Of a DNA stretch of 64,000 bases, positions 18,345-26,689 are shown one piece after another. Below the pieces are notes generated by a model. It was given only the letters and a program-made list of their open reading frames with translations, did no database searches and was not told the origin of the DNA. Position numbers and translations under genes: made by a program. The stretch comes from Bacteroidetes Order II. bacterium (GTDB lineage: Bacteria > Bacteroidota > Rhodothermia > Rhodothermales > UBA2364), in contig JAEUSQ010000015.1 in NCBI GenBank assembly GCA_016788705.1, positions 62,001 through 126,000 on the forward strand, read 5' to 3'. The first letter of the stretch is position 1. Each line of letters begins with the position of its first letter.

Positions 18345-21300
18345 ATGCGCTTTGTTCTCGTTTCTCCGGCGTTTGGCTTCTCCCCAAAATGCGCCTTGCT
18401 TTTATTTTTGGGGTGGTTTTCTGGTGAACTGGCTTTTGCCCAAACACCTACCACCTCTGCACACACCGAATATGCAACGGCTTTAGCGCTTTTTCAATCG
18501 GGCGTTTATCAAAAAGCCTATGAAGCCTTTAAGTCTTTCGAGCAGCAATATCCGGATCATCCTCATGCGGCAGAATCCCGATATTATCAGGCGGAGTCGC
18601 TACTTGCTTTAGGAAAAACCCAAGAAGCGGCACCGCTCTACGCCTCGTTTGCAAGTCACTACCCCGGCCATCCGTTTGGGGAAAAAGCGCAAATGACCCT
18701 AGGCCAATATTATTTTGAAAAGGGGGAATATGCCAAGTCGCGTGCCGCATTTGGAGGGGTTTTTCAAAACCAAAAAGATCCTGAACTGGCTGCTGAAGCC
18801 CTTTATTGGATGGGGCTAAACAGTATCCGTCTAAATGAAATGGATATTGCCTTAGACTACTTGGATCAAGCCCATATCCGGTTTCCAAATACCCAGATTG
18901 CCCCACAGGCACTGTATCTGGTAGGAAAAACCGAGTTGGAACGTAAAAATTTTGCCCGTGCAGCCGAACTTTTTGATCAATTAGCAAACCGTTACCCCTT
19001 GTCCGACTTTACCGGAAAGACGGCTCTGGCTGGCATGGAAGCCAATTTTGAATTAGGCCGATTTGAACGGGTACTCGGCGAAGGAGACAAACGACTACCC
19101 TTTTTTACAGGCCGCGATTTAGAGCGGGCATTGATGATGATGGGCGAATCGGCCTCACAGTTAAACGATTTTAGTAGGGCACAATATTACTTCACCCAAC
19201 TCAACAACAACTTTCCCCGCAGCCCTTATACCCGATATGCGAATTTTGGCTTAGGATGGACCTATCTTCAACAAAAACAATACAGTACAGCATCAGGTTT
19301 TTTCCGCGCAAGTAAACAGGATTTCAAAGACAATCTGGCACAAAAAGCCACTTATTATGAAGCAGTATCCACATTACTTTTAGGAGAAACCAATCAAGCA
19401 CGCACAATCTTTTCGGATGTAGTGGTACTTTGGCCGCAAGGAGAATTTACAGACCAGGCACTTTTTGAACTAGGTCTCCTTCAGTATAAAGCACAACGTT
19501 GGGAAGAGAGTGCACGGTATTTCAACCAATTGGTAACCGGTTTTCCTGCTTCCAACCGAACCGGAGACGCATATTTGTACCTTGGCGAATCGTTTGCCTT
19601 ATTGGGTGATAACGACCGGGCCAACGCAGCTTTTGAACAAGCCATGCGCCAAACCAATCTGACGGCATCGGCACGCAACCAATTAAGTTATCGGAAAGGA
19701 TGGTTATTGTATCAAAATCGAAATTTTGCAGAGGCACAAGCCGCTTTTGGAACAGCCTTTACGACGTCTAATGCCGGAGAGGCCCTTTTTTGGCAGGCCG
19801 AAAGTTTGGTTCAGGAGGGTAAGTATGCGGATGCCGAACGCCTCTTAAACCAATACATCGCCGGATATAAACAAGATCCAAACGTAAACAGTGCCCATTA
19901 TGTACTGGGTTGGATTTACTTCAATACGGGCCGTTACGACTTGGCTGCCCGCAGTTTCGAGACTTTTACCGCTAACTTCCGGCCCACCGCCAATCAAGAA
20001 GCGTACCGTACCGATGCCCAGATGCGGCTCGGCGACAGTTATTTTGCTTTGAAACGGTTTGATGATGCCGTTCTCGCCTACCGAAAAGTGGGCAATCAAG
20101 GGACCGTATATGCACTCTTCCAGATTGGTCAAGCATACATGAACAGTGGACAGGAGGCCGATGCCATCAATGCCTTCCGTAGATTGGTCGGCAATTATCC
20201 CAACTCCGAATGGGCGCCCGAATCACAATACCTCGTAGGTTACATCCTACTCCAGCAACAAAAATACGACTTGGCCATTAATGAGTACTTCAATGTATTG
20301 CGTTTCTATCCCCAAAGCCCCGAAGCTGCTAAAGCACAATATGGAATCGGAGATGCCTATTTTAACCAAGATCGCTTTTCCGAGGCCATTAATGCATACA
20401 AAGAAGTGATCATCCGGTATCCCCAAAGCCCTGTGATTCCGGATGCACTTATGGGAATTCAACTTTCGTATCTCGCCCTAAATCAGCCTGGTGCAGCCGA
20501 AACGCTCATTGACCAGTATTTGCGCCAAAATCCCGGAACAGAAGTGGCAGATCAAGTACGGTTTAAGCAAGCTGAAATGCAGTTTCAGAATGGTGAAACC
20601 CAAAAAGCCCTCACTGGATTTCAGTACTTTTTGCAGGCGAACCGAAATCCGGCATTAGCCCCAGCTGCAACCTACTATGTAGGAGCCAGTTATTACCAAC
20701 TGAAAGATTACCGAAATGCGGAACAGTACTTAAAACTAGTATTGGATCGTTACCCCTCGGAGCCAGCATCGTTTGAAGCCGCACGTCTATTGGCCAATTT
20801 ATTGCTGACAACCGGAAGGCCCAATGAAGCCCTTAGCTTATTCAAACGATTGGAGACCAATGCAGAGGGAGATATTTCTGAAATCTCCGAAGCCCAATTA
20901 GGTCAGGCGCAAGCCATGATTGCGTTGGGGGATACCGAGGGCGGACGTCGGTTGTTGGAACAAATTGCATCCAAACACGCCACACAAGATGCTGGAAAGA
21001 CGGCCTTACTCCGACTCGCCGCCGTGAACGTACAATTGAACAATTTAAATGCTGCATTAGATCTCTATCGGCGAATGGCCCAAACCAACGACGATGTTTT
21101 TGCCAGTGAAGCACAATTTCGTTATGGAAGCCTCTTGTTGCAGATGAACCGCGCACAAGAAGCCCTTCAAGCCTTCACCGCCATCCAACAACGTTTTCCA
21201 GATGTGATAGATTGGGTGGCGCAAAGTTATTTGGGACAGGCACGCGCATATCGGGCACTCGGCAATCGAGCCAGCGCCCTTCAGGCATATGATCAGGTCA

Positions 21301-21362
21301 TAGTGGAATATGGTCAAACCCCTTATGCACAGATTGCCCGTTCGGAGAAAGCAACACTTTAA
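18345..21362 (+). CDS. Large periplasmic TPR-repeat protein
   Basis: This 1005-aa protein has a signal peptide (cleaved after about residue 32, ELAFAQ). The rest is a solenoid of about 25 tetratricopeptide-like repeats with recurring motifs such as ALFQSGVYQKAYEAF, YPDHPHAAESRYYQA, YLVGYILLQQQKYD and YPQSPEAAKAQYGIG. The alternation of one TPR helix pair with Y-P-S-P turn sequences resembles the YbgF/BamD-like class of periplasmic TPR proteins that tether outer-membrane and inner-membrane machines. It is the first gene of a five-gene plus-strand cluster. The barrel protein follows after 34 nt. A scaffold role is an inference. No enzyme motif is visible. Confidence 0.86.
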   Translation: MRFVLVSPAFGFSPKCALLLFLGWFSGELAFAQTPTTSAHTEYATALALFQSGVYQKAYEAFKSFEQQYPDHPHAAESRYYQAESLLALGKTQEAAPLYASFASHYPGHPFGEKAQMTLGQYYFEKGEYAKSRAAFGGVFQNQKDPELAAEALYWMGLNSIRLNEMDIALDYLDQAHIRFPNTQIAPQALYLVGKTELERKNFARAAELFDQLANRYPLSDFTGKTALAGMEANFELGRFERVLGEGDKRLPFFTGRDLERALMMMGESASQLNDFSRAQYYFTQLNNNFPRSPYTRYANFGLGWTYLQQKQYSTASGFFRASKQDFKDNLAQKATYYEAVSTLLLGETNQARTIFSDVVVLWPQGEFTDQALFELGLLQYKAQRWEESARYFNQLVTGFPASNRTGDAYLYLGESFALLGDNDRANAAFEQAMRQTNLTASARNQLSYRKGWLLYQNRNFAEAQAAFGTAFTTSNAGEALFWQAESLVQEGKYADAERLLNQYIAGYKQDPNVNSAHYVLGWIYFNTGRYDLAARSFETFTANFRPTANQEAYRTDAQMRLGDSYFALKRFDDAVLAYRKVGNQGTVYALFQIGQAYMNSGQEADAINAFRRLVGNYPNSEWAPESQYLVGYILLQQQKYDLAINEYFNVLRFYPQSPEAAKAQYGIGDAYFNQDRFSEAINAYKEVIIRYPQSPVIPDALMGIQLSYLALNQPGAAETLIDQYLRQNPGTEVADQVRFKQAEMQFQNGETQKALTGFQYFLQANRNPALAPAATYYVGASYYQLKDYRNAEQYLKLVLDRYPSEPASFEAARLLANLLLTTGRPNEALSLFKRLETNAEGDISEISEAQLGQAQAMIALGDTEGGRRLLEQIASKHATQDAGKTALLRLAAVNVQLNNLNAALDLYRRMAQTNDDVFASEAQFRYGSLLLQMNRAQEALQAFTAIQQRFPDVIDWVAQSYLGQARAYRALGNRASALQAYDQVIVEYGQTPYAQIARSEKATL

Positions 21363-21396
21363 ACCCGAAAACGCCCTATAAAACAGTTTAAGAGTT

Positions 21397-23157
21397 ATGA
21401 AAAGCTATCGTTTTGGGGTTCTATTTTTTTTACTAATCGGACAGGTTTTGCTGGCACAACCCGTTGTACCGGACCTTAAGCCGAATGAAGTGGTGATCCG
21501 AAGCAAAAAGCCAATCGAATTACCAAAAATAGAACGCCCCTCCATCACCAGTTTGGTAATTCCTCCGAAGCCTTTTTCACCACCCGAAGGACAAACCCCT
21601 TTTATTGGTGGGTACAAGCAAAACCCCACCGAACTTCCTCATAATTCGTTGGCCGATGTTCCCGTTGGCGATCGTTTTACCCTGTCTTCTGCACAGCCAA
21701 GACAACTTCTACTAAAAGCGTCTGCGGGCCGTTATTTTAGTCGTGAACTTCAGGCATTTGCCCATGTACCGTTTCGGGATGGGGTTGCTTTTTTTGGGGA
21801 TATAGACTACTTGGGGAGCGATGGACATCAGCCTTTTGAAGCAAAACCGGATTTAAAGGCTACTTTTGCGAATTTCAAACTTAAAATCGGCTCCTCTCAA
21901 GAATACCAAAAAAGTATTGCCCGTTTGATTCTGAATGGCTTTTCCACCCGAAACAATCTTTTTGGTGCCGATACAATGATGGTGGTGACAGGCCCTAAAC
22001 TAATGGCACAGCCCCTCCGAAAGGGACGTGGCCTAGGAATCGGCGGAGATTGGTACGCCCTCGAAACCGCCCGTTTCCCTTTTAAAATTCGTGCTGACTA
22101 CCAGAGTGAACGATTCGATAGTGACATATTATCTGTTGCACCGGATATCTATTCCAGAACTGAAAAACGCATGAATCTCGGCGGCGAGGCCCGAATACCC
22201 ATGGGAAAAGTTGAGTTTTTTTCGGATGCACACCTGACCCTCTCTGCAATAGATTCAAAAGCCGTACTCGGTTCAGACTTGCTTTCGCAATCGGTGAAAG
22301 CAGGGATTACTTGGATGATCACGAAGGCATTATGTATCAGCACGGGTCTTCAATATGCTGGCTTTGAGGCTTCGGAAAGAAACATGGGTACGGAACCTGT
22401 TTCAAAAAACTTCTTCGCACCTTATATCCGCGCCGATTATTTCTTCCCCAAAGGATTGCAGGTGTTTTTGAAAAACGACCCCCGCATCATCCATCATACT
22501 ACCTCCGGCTTATTTGCACAGAATCCGTATTTGATTGATGATCCGATAGTTAAACCAACCGTAAGCACCATTGCCATTGAGTCTGGTATCGGTTTAAGAA
22601 GACAACCTTATCAGTTTGGTTTTAAAGCAGGTTATACAAAAAACCCGGAATATTTATATTTTCAAAAGGCTACCAAGGACCGATATGCAGGTTTTGCAAG
22701 AGGGATATTTGAATCTCAATATGCACTGGCGGATGCTTTTTATGCACAGGCCGAGGCGGGTATCACCCTTTTTGAAGTCCTTTGGGCTTCGGTGACGGCA
22801 AAGTTACAAAATGGACGCCTGATTGGTTCAGAGGGAAACGAAGATACCCTAATCCCACATGAAGCCACATTTGAGTCTTCTGGCAGCCTCGTGTACACCT
22901 TTTTAAAACAAAAGGCACGTCTTCAAGCGGATATTAACATGATTGGCACGAGATATGCAAGCACCGATAAAACAGGAGAAGTTACACCTGTATTGGATTT
23001 AGGAATTTCAGGGAGTTATCAAATTTGGAAAGACTATGGCGTTTATGCACAAGTAAAACACCTTTCCGCCAGTCCATACGAACGCTGGGCTGGCTATCCT
23101 GAAGCCCGATTTGTGGTGATGCTGGGTATTAAAACAGCCTTGAATGTATTGAATTAA
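21397..23157 (+). CDS. Predicted outer-membrane beta-barrel protein
   Basis: This 586-aa protein has a signal peptide (residues 1-20, ending LLAQ). A proline-rich periplasmic segment of about 60 residues (PKIERPSITSLVIPPKPF) follows, and then a long run of alternating hydrophobic/polar beta strands rich in aromatic residues. The C-terminal strand ARFVVMLGIKTALNVLN fits an outer-membrane barrel end poorly in its last residue, but the remaining pattern is barrel-like. No TonB-dependent plug domain is seen. I do not recognise a named family. It lies between the TPR scaffold and the SPOR protein, so it is probably the outer-membrane part of the same envelope machine (inference). Confidence 0.7.
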   Translation: MKSYRFGVLFFLLIGQVLLAQPVVPDLKPNEVVIRSKKPIELPKIERPSITSLVIPPKPFSPPEGQTPFIGGYKQNPTELPHNSLADVPVGDRFTLSSAQPRQLLLKASAGRYFSRELQAFAHVPFRDGVAFFGDIDYLGSDGHQPFEAKPDLKATFANFKLKIGSSQEYQKSIARLILNGFSTRNNLFGADTMMVVTGPKLMAQPLRKGRGLGIGGDWYALETARFPFKIRADYQSERFDSDILSVAPDIYSRTEKRMNLGGEARIPMGKVEFFSDAHLTLSAIDSKAVLGSDLLSQSVKAGITWMITKALCISTGLQYAGFEASERNMGTEPVSKNFFAPYIRADYFFPKGLQVFLKNDPRIIHHTTSGLFAQNPYLIDDPIVKPTVSTIAIESGIGLRRQPYQFGFKAGYTKNPEYLYFQKATKDRYAGFARGIFESQYALADAFYAQAEAGITLFEVLWASVTAKLQNGRLIGSEGNEDTLIPHEATFESSGSLVYTFLKQKARLQADINMIGTRYASTDKTGEVTPVLDLGISGSYQIWKDYGVYAQVKHLSASPYERWAGYPEARFVVMLGIKTALNVLN

Positions 23158-23265
23158 CGGTTTATTTTTACCATAATTATCCACGGATGGCTTCAAAAAT
23201 GTATGATTCATGATTATCTTGTAAAGCCCTCCAGTTTCTGAACCAATCTTTTATTTGCCGAAAAC

Positions 23266-25350
23266 ATGAACGATCCATTGCCGCGATTCCGGCGCGAAGA
23301 AGTGTTCCAATCTACACAAATACCGGAATCGGATATACAACATCCCATCCCCAATCCGGCCCAAGCAGCAGCAGCCGTTTTGGATGCCCTCTCCTCGGAT
23401 GCTCCTGAAGGGGTAGCCTTTGTACCGGAAGGCCTGCCAAGTCCCACAGGTATTGTTCAAGACTTACCCATTTCAGGAAGCTCGGCTGCCGAATCCATTG
23501 CAGAGGGGGTATCCGGATTTGACGAAACCCTTCATGTTGCCGCACCGGAAATTACGACCGAAGGATTGATTGCCGATATTCCACAGGCCATTCCAGAACT
23601 ACCTCAGGCAGAAGTAGAAGGTATCAACCGCTTTTTATACGATGAAACCCTTGGGGATCCGATGGATACAGCCTCTTTTTCGGCACCCATCGCTTATACT
23701 GGCGAAATCCATTCAGTAGCTTCCGAAACCGAATGGAAACCTTTAGAAAACCTTCCATCCGCAATCTCATCCCAAGCTATTGTAGATGATGAACCTCTTC
23801 TGGTACTCCCCTCCGTTGAGGCAACGCCCCCCCTTGACAATGCTTTGATGAATTTAGGCAATGAGTTGCCGGATGATCTACGGTCTCCGATTATGGACTT
23901 TTCAGAATCCGGCGGCTTGGCACACCCAACCGAACCGCTTATGATCTTGGAATCAGTTACGGCTGAAAACACGGCTGAGGGAGGCCCAATTTCAGACCTT
24001 GCGGTTCCCGACCGCACCGAAGCCTTTGAAACCTTGACCGCACGTGAAACTGTACCCGTTCTGGCGCAACCGATTCCCTTGGCGCCAGAAGATCCCATTG
24101 CACCACCCACTGATCCTAAACAGGAAATCGCCATGATGTTAGAACAAGATGAACCGGCTTTTACCGTGGCTGTCCGGTATCTCGAAACCTATCGCCAAGA
24201 CCCGACCGGAGAATCGGGTGCGGATGCCCTTTTCTGGGCTGCCGAAAATTATCAGAAAGCCGGACTACCCGGAAAAGCACGCGGCCTGTTTCAAGACTTT
24301 GTGCGCCAATTCCCCAATCACCCCAAAGTATCAAAAGCACAAGAATATCTTCAATGGATAGATGTGGATACTCCTTCGGAAGAGCAAGTAACCCGCCCTA
24401 CCCTCAACACAGCGCTTGCCACACAGGTACCCAGCGAACCCAAACAGCCTGAGCCGCCATATGGCACGCCCTTGCCCAGTTTTCGTCCCATTGGCGACCA
24501 GACGCCCGCGGCGGCGGCCCATATACCAGCACCTCAACCCGTTACCGACGAGCCATATCACTACATCGCTCCACCTGTGATGGGGCCCACAATGCGTAAT
24601 CCACCTGCCCAGCCGATTCCACAAACAGTACGCATGTCATCAACACCGGAACAAAACCCTAACGAACCTGTTTCTAACGAATCTTCGAGAGCAACCACAG
24701 CGGCCGTAGCCGCTACGGCCACTTCCGTTCCGCTTTTATTAAGAGCCAAAAATTTTGTACAATCTAAACCTCCCAAAGTGCGCGGCTTAATTTATATATT
24801 GAGTGGCCTTGCCCTCTTTCTCATTGCCTTGGTTTTGTTTACCCTGAGCCGAGGACTCTTTTCCAGTACTACTGGCCCAACCATCTCCCAATCGGGACAA
24901 ACGGGTCTTACCAATGAAAGTTTGGTACAGCAACGGGGTACTTCTCCTACGCCTGCTCCTGGTACAGCGGGCGGATTGATTGGTAACGGAGAGGGTACGA
25001 CGGCCACTTCCGGCGGCACGGGTGCTACGGCTAGTGGTGGTACAACCACAGGATCAGCGTCCGATATTTTCCGCAGTCCTATGGAGGTACAAGGGGGGAG
25101 CGATCTAAACACCTCGGCTGGCGGCTGGGGCTGGTCTCTCAAGTTTTCCTCTAACCGTACCGAGCTGGAAAAGATGGCAGCCAACCTACGTAGTCGTGGG
25201 TATCGTACAGGTATTATCACCATCAGTTCCCCCCAGCAAGGCTATCGGCTGATTTTAGGTCAGTTCAAGTCTAAAGAGGAAGCCAAAGCATCAAAAGGCA
25301 AATTGCCCTACGATACGCCCAAGGACGCTTGGACCGTAGAAATTAAATAA
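23266..25350 (+). CDS. Inner-membrane SPOR-domain protein with long acidic N-terminal region and TPR
   Basis: The 694-aa protein has four parts. Residues 1-285 are acidic, Pro/Glu/Ala-rich and probably disordered. Residues ~287-360 form a short TPR-like block (FTVAVRYLETYRQ, YQKAGLPGKARGLFQDFV). A single TM helix spans about 508-530 (LIYILSGLALFLIALVLF). A Ser/Thr/Gly-rich linker leads to a C-terminal SPOR domain (about 619-694, GWGWSLKFSSN ... YRLILGQFKSKEEA). SPOR domains bind denuded septal peptidoglycan. With no signal peptide and one TM helix, the long N-terminus should be cytoplasmic and the SPOR domain periplasmic. A strong terminator follows, separating it from exbB. Confidence 0.87.
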   Translation: MNDPLPRFRREEVFQSTQIPESDIQHPIPNPAQAAAAVLDALSSDAPEGVAFVPEGLPSPTGIVQDLPISGSSAAESIAEGVSGFDETLHVAAPEITTEGLIADIPQAIPELPQAEVEGINRFLYDETLGDPMDTASFSAPIAYTGEIHSVASETEWKPLENLPSAISSQAIVDDEPLLVLPSVEATPPLDNALMNLGNELPDDLRSPIMDFSESGGLAHPTEPLMILESVTAENTAEGGPISDLAVPDRTEAFETLTARETVPVLAQPIPLAPEDPIAPPTDPKQEIAMMLEQDEPAFTVAVRYLETYRQDPTGESGADALFWAAENYQKAGLPGKARGLFQDFVRQFPNHPKVSKAQEYLQWIDVDTPSEEQVTRPTLNTALATQVPSEPKQPEPPYGTPLPSFRPIGDQTPAAAAHIPAPQPVTDEPYHYIAPPVMGPTMRNPPAQPIPQTVRMSSTPEQNPNEPVSNESSRATTAAVAATATSVPLLLRAKNFVQSKPPKVRGLIYILSGLALFLIALVLFTLSRGLFSSTTGPTISQSGQTGLTNESLVQQRGTSPTPAPGTAGGLIGNGEGTTATSGGTGATASGGTTTGSASDIFRSPMEVQGGSDLNTSAGGWGWSLKFSSNRTELEKMAANLRSRGYRTGIITISSPQQGYRLILGQFKSKEEAKASKGKLPYDTPKDAWTVEIK

Positions 25351-25358
25351 AACCCTCG

Positions 25359-25409
25359 GAAGCCTGTCTTATAATGTATAGGCATTAGATAGGCTTCTTT
25401 CTCTTTTTC
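25359..25409 (+). terminator. Intrinsic terminator between SPOR gene and exbB
   Basis: An 11-bp stem (GAAGCCTGTCT / AGATAGGCTTC, one G-T pair) with a 17-nt loop is followed by TTTCTCTTTTT. It lies 9 nt after the SPOR stop codon and about 20 nt before the exbB start. It should reduce read-through, so exbBD may also have a promoter of their own. Confidence 0.7.
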
Positions 25410-25429
25410 CCACTTGTTCCGCAAAACCC

Positions 25430-26203
25430 ATGCCATTGCTCAACGGATTCATCCTTGCCTTACAGCAACCAACTGCCACCCCTCTTGCTACGCAACCGGG
25501 CCCAACCCCTGTAACACCACAGGCCACAACGAATATGTTCGACCTCGTTTGGTCTGGCGGATGGGTCATGATCCCAATTATCATCGCCTCGCTTTTGGCG
25601 GTATATGTATTTATAGAACGTTTTTTACTTTACCGCAAGGCTGCAGCAAACGAAAACTTTATTGAGTACATCCGCCGATACCTACAAGGTGGCGATGTTC
25701 GGGGAGCACTGACCTATTGCGCTACCATTTCAAAACCAGTGGCACAAGTTGTAAAAAAGGGTTTAGAACGGATTGGGCGTCCGATTACCGAGATACAGGA
25801 AATTGTTCTGATCGAAGGCAGGGATCAGGCATATAAGTTAGAAAAAAGGCTGGTATGGCTTGCAACCATTGCTGGAGTTGCCCCACTTTTAGGATTTCTG
25901 GGCACTGTTTTGGGCATGGTCGAGGCATTCCAGTCTATTCAAAGTATGCAAGGGCAGGTGAATCCAAGTGTTTTAGCAGGCGGAATCTGGACGGCACTCA
26001 TTACCACCGTAGGTGGTCTAATTGTTGCTATACCAACACAAATTGCCTACAATTACTTATTGGAGCGCTATCATTTCATTGTGAACCAAATGGAACGTTT
26101 TTCCTCGGACTTTATTGACCTGTTACAGGAACCCGTTCCCACTATGGTGATGCCACAAACCACGCAACCATACCCATACCCGCAACAAAATCCGCAATAC
26201 TGA
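25430..26203 (+). CDS. exbB: MotA/TolQ/ExbB proton channel family protein
   Basis: This 257-aa protein has the three-TM topology of ExbB/TolQ: TM1 at about residues 45-63, TM2 at about 143-165 and TM3 at about 187-207. A cytoplasmic helical domain lies between TM1 and TM2. The conserved stretch GVAPLLGFLGTVLGMVEAF is in TM2 and the TALITTVGGLIVAIPTQIAYN segment is in TM3. With ExbD/TolR it forms the proton-motive-force motor that drives TonB- or Tol-type work across the periplasm. A Pro/Thr/Gln-rich N-terminal tail (residues 5-35) precedes TM1 and the C-terminus is Pro/Gln/Tyr-rich. Its stop is one nt from the exbD start. Whether it serves TonB or a Tol-like function cannot be told; the neighbouring SPOR and TPR proteins favour a Tol-like role. 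Confidence 0.92.
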   Translation: MPLLNGFILALQQPTATPLATQPGPTPVTPQATTNMFDLVWSGGWVMIPIIIASLLAVYVFIERFLLYRKAAANENFIEYIRRYLQGGDVRGALTYCATISKPVAQVVKKGLERIGRPITEIQEIVLIEGRDQAYKLEKRLVWLATIAGVAPLLGFLGTVLGMVEAFQSIQSMQGQVNPSVLAGGIWTALITTVGGLIVAIPTQIAYNYLLERYHFIVNQMERFSSDFIDLLQEPVPTMVMPQTTQPYPYPQQNPQY

Positions 26204-26204
26204 A

Positions 26205-26633
26205 ATGAGCCGCTTTCATTTTTCCACCAACAAACTCCGTCCGATGGAGTCGTTTAGTCAGGCAGGAATGGCGGACATCACCATGTTGCTCCTCATTTTT
26301 TTCTTGCTAACCTCTAATTTTATCATCCAAAATGGACTTCCGGTTAACGTCCCCAAGGCCGAAGCCGGAACCCCGACAGACAGCGAGCAATACCTGACCG
26401 TCATTGTCACGGAAAACAACGAGATTTTTGTGAATCAAGTACAAATCCGTGAAGAGGACTTGGTTGGCACCTTAAATGCAAACAAAGGGGATATGCAAAA
26501 AGTGGTCATTCGTGCAGATGAAAAAGCACGTCATGGAGTTGTCACTGCGGTGATGTCGGCGGCGGCATCGTTGGACTTACGTGTAGCAGTTGCCACCGAG
26601 CTACCAGAAGAGAACACGTCTTCTGGTAGGTAG
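26205..26633 (+). CDS. exbD: ExbD/TolR family biopolymer transport protein
   Basis: The 142-aa protein has one N-terminal TM helix with the proton-carrying aspartate in MADITMLLLIFFLLTS (Asp about residue 24). A periplasmic ExbD/TolR domain follows, with the VNVPKAEAG motif and VVIRADEKARHGVV near the C-terminus. This is the standard stator partner of ExbB. It is separated from exbB by a single nucleotide, so translation is coupled. An intrinsic terminator closes the unit 27 nt downstream. Confidence 0.93.
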   Translation: MSRFHFSTNKLRPMESFSQAGMADITMLLLIFFLLTSNFIIQNGLPVNVPKAEAGTPTDSEQYLTVIVTENNEIFVNQVQIREEDLVGTLNANKGDMQKVVIRADEKARHGVVTAVMSAAASLDLRVAVATELPEENTSSGR

Positions 26634-26659
26634 TTCCTTTCAATGGTATTATGTTTGGG

Positions 26660-26689
26660 GGCCGATATGTGTTTATCGGCCTTTTTTTT
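26660..26689 (+). terminator. Intrinsic terminator of the exbBD unit
   Basis: A perfect 8-bp stem (GGCCGATA / TATCGGCC) with a 6-nt loop is followed by eight Ts. The T-run overlaps the stop codon of the convergent lipoprotein gene. Confidence 0.88.

Follow-up and report, generated by a model that had tools for sequence, protein, structure and literature searches.

The five-gene cluster

Five consecutive plus-strand genes of the window (the whole stretch of 64,000 nucleotides that was analysed) encode a giant TPR protein, an outer-membrane barrel, a membrane protein with a SPOR domain, here called X, and the two subunits ExbB and ExbD (Table 1). The first-pass annotation had listed these five genes, and all open reading frames lie where it placed them, with Pfam domains that agree. 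Its description of X as a SPOR and TPR protein holds for the SPOR domain, while its TPR part matches weakly, at 22.3 bits where the cut-off is 26.3. The statement that TolA, TolB, Pal and TonB are missing is correct for the five genes, amongst which Pfam detects no OmpA-domain (Pal-type) gene; TonB_C and OmpA domains are found elsewhere in the genome. In many Rhodothermales (L048, L051, L052, L055, L056 and others) a minus-strand gene of about 490-610 aa is located 3' of exbD, which is not the case in the genus of the window.

Table 1. Features of the cluster and of the unlinked TonB-like gene. Positions are those of the window unless a contig is given.
Feature	Position	Strand	Remarks
TPR protein	18345-21362	+	1005 aa; ORF and Pfam TPR repeats; signal peptide, predicted periplasmic
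Barrel	21397-23157	+	586 aa; predicted plug-less, 22-stranded, of the TonB-dependent transporter type (AlphaFold2, Foldseek)
N-terminal tail segment of the barrel, PDLKPNEVVIRSKKPIELPKIERPSI	21469-21546	+	TonB-box-like, core EVVIRS; conserved, disordered
X (SPOR protein)	23266-25350	+	694 aa; inner-membrane, N-terminus predicted cytoplasmic
Weak TPR_6 repeat in the cytoplasmic part of X	24223-24321	+	E 1.9e-4, under the Pfam cut-off
Transmembrane helix of X, GLIYILSGLALFLIALVLF	24784-24840	+	basic residues on the N side, without histidine
SPOR domain of X, peptidoglycan-binding type	25144-25308	+	PF05036, E 1.1e-8
Hairpin followed by a T-rich tract between X and exbB	25358-25398	+	terminator-like; -20.8 kcal/mol, z -3.85
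ExbB/TolQ-type proton channel subunit	25430-26203	+	257 aa; cluster-specific clade; MotA/ExbB Pfam 7.6e-31
ExbD/TolR-type subunit	26205-26633	+	142 aa; ExbD Pfam 2.2e-20; Asp in the transmembrane segment MADITMLLL
Terminator-like site 3' of exbD	26657-26684	+	strong, stronger than the hairpin between X and exbB
TonB-like gene, other contig of the same genome	G000:C53:129342-130319	minus	profile match 3.7e-53, the protein being one of the 20 rows of its own profile; first found, at 80 bits, by a profile made without it

The barrel and the TPR protein

The barrel has no Pfam match, and by Pfam the plug domain is absent from eight of its homologs. The AlphaFold2 model, based on an alignment of 29 sequences, has a mean pLDDT of 81 and 22 strands spanning residues 103-583, as counted from the listed strands. 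When it is searched with Foldseek, BtuB, OprC, FrpB and other TonB-dependent transporters come first, with E values down to 2.4e-16. The model contains no plug, residues 20-100 being a disordered tail and too short to form one. In this tail P25, P29, P43 and R47 are invariant despite a pLDDT below 50, and a strict TonB-box-like motif is present in 48/81 homologs against a mean of 0.7 for shuffled tails, a figure which is descriptive, as the pattern was picked with the sequences in view and the homologs share ancestry. In the tails of several Bacteroidia the motif reads LPEFVITG or LPDFVITG, which is near the classical TonB box. Going by these models the barrel is predicted to be of the TonB-receptor type, devoid of a plug and provided with a TonB-box-like tail. 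A plug-less pore of 22 strands would leak unless something closes the barrel.

The TPR protein matches the CpoB/YbgF model TIGR02795 in eleven stretches (340.7 bits, cut-off 90.1), which, TPR repeats being common, is weak evidence of kinship to CpoB. Where tested, each genome carries a single homolog of nearly full length. The PorW/SprE protein of the T9SS was considered as an identity and rejected, since NF052312 scores 118 bits against a cut-off of 250.

Gene order and distribution

The barrel, ExbB and ExbD genes are colinear on one strand in 40/40 Rhodothermales loci fetched, and the TPR gene joins them in 39; these loci were picked for holding the barrel, so that the counts measure order and not presence. 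Across them the slot between barrel and exbB is occupied by the X gene, the frame of which is broken in one locus (L038); in another (L068) the slot holds an ORF of 374 aa, for which HU and SPOR matches are found in the duplicate record L217. Retention of the five-gene order in all barrel-bearing loci fetched is far beyond chance, and comparison with relatives, the check proposed in the first-pass annotation, upholds the neighbourhood.

A search for the barrel in 99 relatives gave matches in 80, nearly always one per genome. The barrel profile matches 229/297 genomes sampled from the phylum, an upper estimate of the true orthologs, as many of the weaker matches span part of the barrel. Relatives recovered by the TPR profile include Bacteroidetes bacterium UBA2364 (TPR protein 95% identical), the nearest one with a name, as well as Roseithermus, Rhodothermus, Salinibacter, Salinivenus and Longimonas, and place the window in the Rhodothermales. 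In the genomes tested of the families f17, f18 and f19 the TPR gene is not beside the barrel, yet it is present elsewhere in each. A contig of the Zixibacteria (Candidatus Zixiibacteriota, L254) carries TPR, barrel, ExbB, ExbD and TonB-like genes contiguously, without X. Some Bacteroidia (e.g. L145, L148, L150, L153 and L161) have TPR and barrel genes without an adjacent ExbBD or TonB-like gene, and in such genomes the two proteins may work with no motor of their own. In loci of Verrucomicrobiota/Planctomycetota found with the TPR profile (L256, L263, L266, L269), giant TPR genes adjoin ExbB and ExbD genes; these loci resemble the vWA force-transducer neighbourhoods presented in PMC12204202.

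A TonB-like protein encoded elsewhere

Sister orders within the class, as well as several Bacteroidia, carry a TonB-like gene directly 3' of exbD. Where exbBD is not adjacent, the TonB-like gene often follows directly after X (L137, L138, L142, L143, L149, L154, L155, L158, L159). In the Rhodothermales the gene is unlinked to the cluster, and by profile search most of those tested have a full-length relative. The first-pass annotation had regarded a tonB homologue located elsewhere and pairing with this ExbBD as evidence against its proposal, and this is largely what is found, as the unlinked gene follows exbD in sister lineages and tracks the presence and absence of the cluster.

The C53 protein is composed of a transmembrane helix with a His, a Pro-rich linker and a TonB-type C-terminal domain, TonB_C being the only Pfam domain (36.8 bits, cut-off 24.6). 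The C-terminal domain is modelled as a beta-beta-alpha-beta fold and is structurally nearest to TonB; the top Foldseek match is the TonB domain bound to FoxA, and TolA ranks lower. The helix carries the S..H pattern of TonB and TolA, and the role of this His is discussed in PMC12204202. In several members from sister orders (e.g. L122, L123, L124, L127, L128) this His is replaced by Asn.

Two further genes are located in the region of the TonB-like gene. In the genus of the window a cluster c1 gene (L182:10333-11412, minus strand), encoding an outer-membrane-type protein of 359 aa without Pfam match, is directly upstream of it, and a relative of c1 is close to the TonB-like gene in several other Rhodothermales. 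Near it on C53 is also found the gene of a 911 aa H+-pyrophosphatase (PF03030) with a C-terminal OmpA domain (PF00691; L182:15095-17830, minus strand).

The SPOR protein X

In many relatives of X, a single transmembrane helix and the SPOR domain at the C-terminus are preceded by an HU-type domain at the N-terminus, which matches HU-CCDC81_bac_2 or Bac_DNA_binding. The genome of the window and its two genus-mates gave no such HU match, and the DNA-binding-type domain appears to have been lost in this genus. The CCDC81-type HU domains of Bacteroidetes were reportedly predicted to have a role in chromosome partition in a 2017 analysis of HU-family clades by Burroughs and colleagues. SPOR domains bind denuded septal glycans (PMC6895207), which points tentatively to division.

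Concerted loss

In the family f15 none of the 11 genomes tested gives a TPR match at E <= 1e-60, and all eleven are without the cluster ExbB, their best ExbB scoring 155-162 bits. In genomes holding the cluster ExbB this copy scores 383-427 bits and the second ExbB scores like the best one of f15; in the genome of the window the cluster ExbB reaches 382 bits on the profile of its own family and the other ExbB found 110 bits. Searches of f15 for the barrel with single proteins were negative, apart from a weak match in a single genome that is 8% contaminated, and the barrel profile gave weak matches in three other genomes of the family. None of six f15 genomes has a full-length TonB-like gene, five being without match and the sixth having a weak and partial one. 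X is retained in all six f15 loci fetched, where it matches HU as well as SPOR. Genome G011 of family f10 keeps TPR, barrel and X, and has lost the cluster ExbB, with a TonB-like match that is only weak and partial. From these few loss events, of which that in f15 may be a single one, the core would consist of TPR protein, barrel, ExbBD and TonB-like protein, with X as a separable component.

Comparison with known systems

The Ton system has in common with the cluster the ExbBD motor, the TonB-type C-terminal domain, the receptor-type barrel with its 22 predicted strands and perhaps the TonB box, which the conserved motif in the barrel tail resembles. It differs in that the cluster barrel has no plug, that a giant TPR protein is its constant partner and that in Bacteroidota a SPOR/HU protein is co-encoded. 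The Tol-Pal system has a motor of the same TolQR/ExbBD type and a CpoB-like TPR protein, and the SPOR protein hints at division; in contrast, the cluster has neither TolB nor Pal, the domain of its transducer is TonB-like and not TolA, and an integral barrel takes the place of the Pal lipoprotein. Membership of Tol-Pal was rejected, as the TonB-like protein scores 16.6 bits on tolA_full (cut-off 59.45) and TolB_N has no match in the genomes G000-G002, of which G000 is that of the window. Ten OmpA-domain places are found outside the cluster in the latter genome.

The Agl-Glt machinery of Myxococcus combines a TolQR-type motor and a TonB-domain transducer (GltG) with TPR and outer-membrane proteins (PMC3169522). 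Its barrels are different, no FHA-TonB protein of the GltG type was found here, the TonB-like gene having TonB_C only, and the machinery is reported not to be conserved in Bacteroidetes (PMC3169522). The TonB2 system of Vibrio (TtpB2/TtpC2/TtpD2) is an ExbBD-TonB operon in which the TPR protein TtpD2 is required (PMC6957404); unlike it, the cluster includes a barrel gene of its own, neither TtpB nor TtpC was seen in it, and its TPR protein has 1005 aa instead of 425 aa. In the vWA force-transducer clusters a TPR gene adjoins tolQ/tolR-like motor genes, whereas the transducer is a vWA protein, the TPR link is found mainly in the PVC group and no such barrel is described; this holds for the passages of PMC12204202 consulted, which contain no account of the present cluster either. 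The open-access literature searched on HU-CCDC81 with SPOR, or on TPR/ExbBD/SPOR clusters of Bacteroidetes, likewise gave no description of it.

Proposed mechanism and alternative explanations

We consider the cluster part of a conserved, previously undescribed machine, which is probably a proton-powered puller acting on an outer-membrane barrel. ExbB and ExbD would be the proton-driven inner-membrane motor, of the Ton/Tol kind, and would drive the TonB-family rod encoded on C53, the C-terminal domain of which may take hold of the barrel by the TonB-box-like segment that its disordered periplasmic tail contains. Constant partner of the barrel would be the giant CpoB-like TPR protein, perhaps closing or capping the periplasmic side. 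X would be a co-encoded, separable peptidoglycan anchor, with a cytoplasmic HU-type domain in addition in relatives. What we observe is the order of the genes and how it is conserved, their concerted loss, the domains and the folds as predicted, and it is from these that we infer the physical coupling, the pulling of the tail and the role. To the mechanism as such, i.e. the pull exerted by ExbBD, through an unlinked TonB-like rod, on the tail of a receptor-type barrel that has no plug and has a CpoB-like TPR protein as partner, whatever its role, we assign a probability of about 0.68. Of the single machine imagined at first, one ExbBD-powered trans-envelope system remains and is what the conserved neighbours point to; the SPOR protein as its moved part is not supported.

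The same mechanism of motor, rod and barrel could have another role if rod and TPR protein together gated the plug-less barrel for the passage of a specific molecule through the outer membrane. The fold of a TonB-dependent transporter, the TonB-box-like tail and the dedicated TonB-like protein agree with such an energised transporter, as does TonB2 of Vibrio, where TtpD2 is needed for iron transport with ExbBD-TonB (PMC6957404). However, the plug, which gated import needs in known TonB-dependent transporters, is missing from the barrel, no binding lipoprotein or catabolic gene adjoins the cluster in the window by ORFs and Pfam, and occurrence over most of the phylum suits housekeeping better than a single nutrient. 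A transporter is somewhat unlikely.

It is improbable that ExbBD is a general energiser, common with ordinary TonB-dependent import, and that the neighbourhood is only an inherited operon order. Motors can be shared, and the genome has seven TonB_C places, with several TonB proteins, and a second ExbB-ExbD-ExbD-TonB operon on contig C66; but the gene order persists as far as Zixibacteria, and in f15 the loss of the cluster ExbB coincides with that of TPR, barrel and unlinked TonB-like genes while another ExbB remains. That ExbBD moves X and no TonB-like rod takes part was tried and given up as hardly credible. In its favour, almost every Rhodothermales locus has X between barrel and exbB, X spans the membrane once with its C-terminus in the periplasm, and its family binds the cell wall; but the helix is without the His of the TonB/TolA type, X persists in f15 after loss of the TPR, barrel, cluster ExbB and TonB-like genes, the contiguous cluster of Zixibacteria does without it, and the TonB-like protein is a better-fitting transducer.

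For the role of the puller, constriction or integrity of the outer membrane at division is a tentative assignment that is likelier than transport. It is suggested by the SPOR and CpoB-like parts and by the lack of tol-pal in Bacteroidetes reported in PMC12204202, while the receptor type of the barrel speaks for import or export. A chromosome-to-outer-membrane division machine, in which, in many relatives, the HU-TM-SPOR protein would tie the nucleoid to the septal wall and ExbBD with the TonB-like rod would draw the outer membrane inward via the plug-less barrel, so that much of Bacteroidota would use it in place of Tol-Pal, is a speculative extension and quite unlikely in this full form.

How Bacteroidota stabilise and constrict the outer membrane when no Tol-Pal system can be recognised in them is described as an open question in PMC12204202. 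The cluster is a concrete and widely conserved candidate for that gap, with a defined motor, rod, barrel, TPR partner and co-encoded HU-SPOR protein. If this is true, a TonB receptor barrel would have been converted from a gated importer to a force handle.
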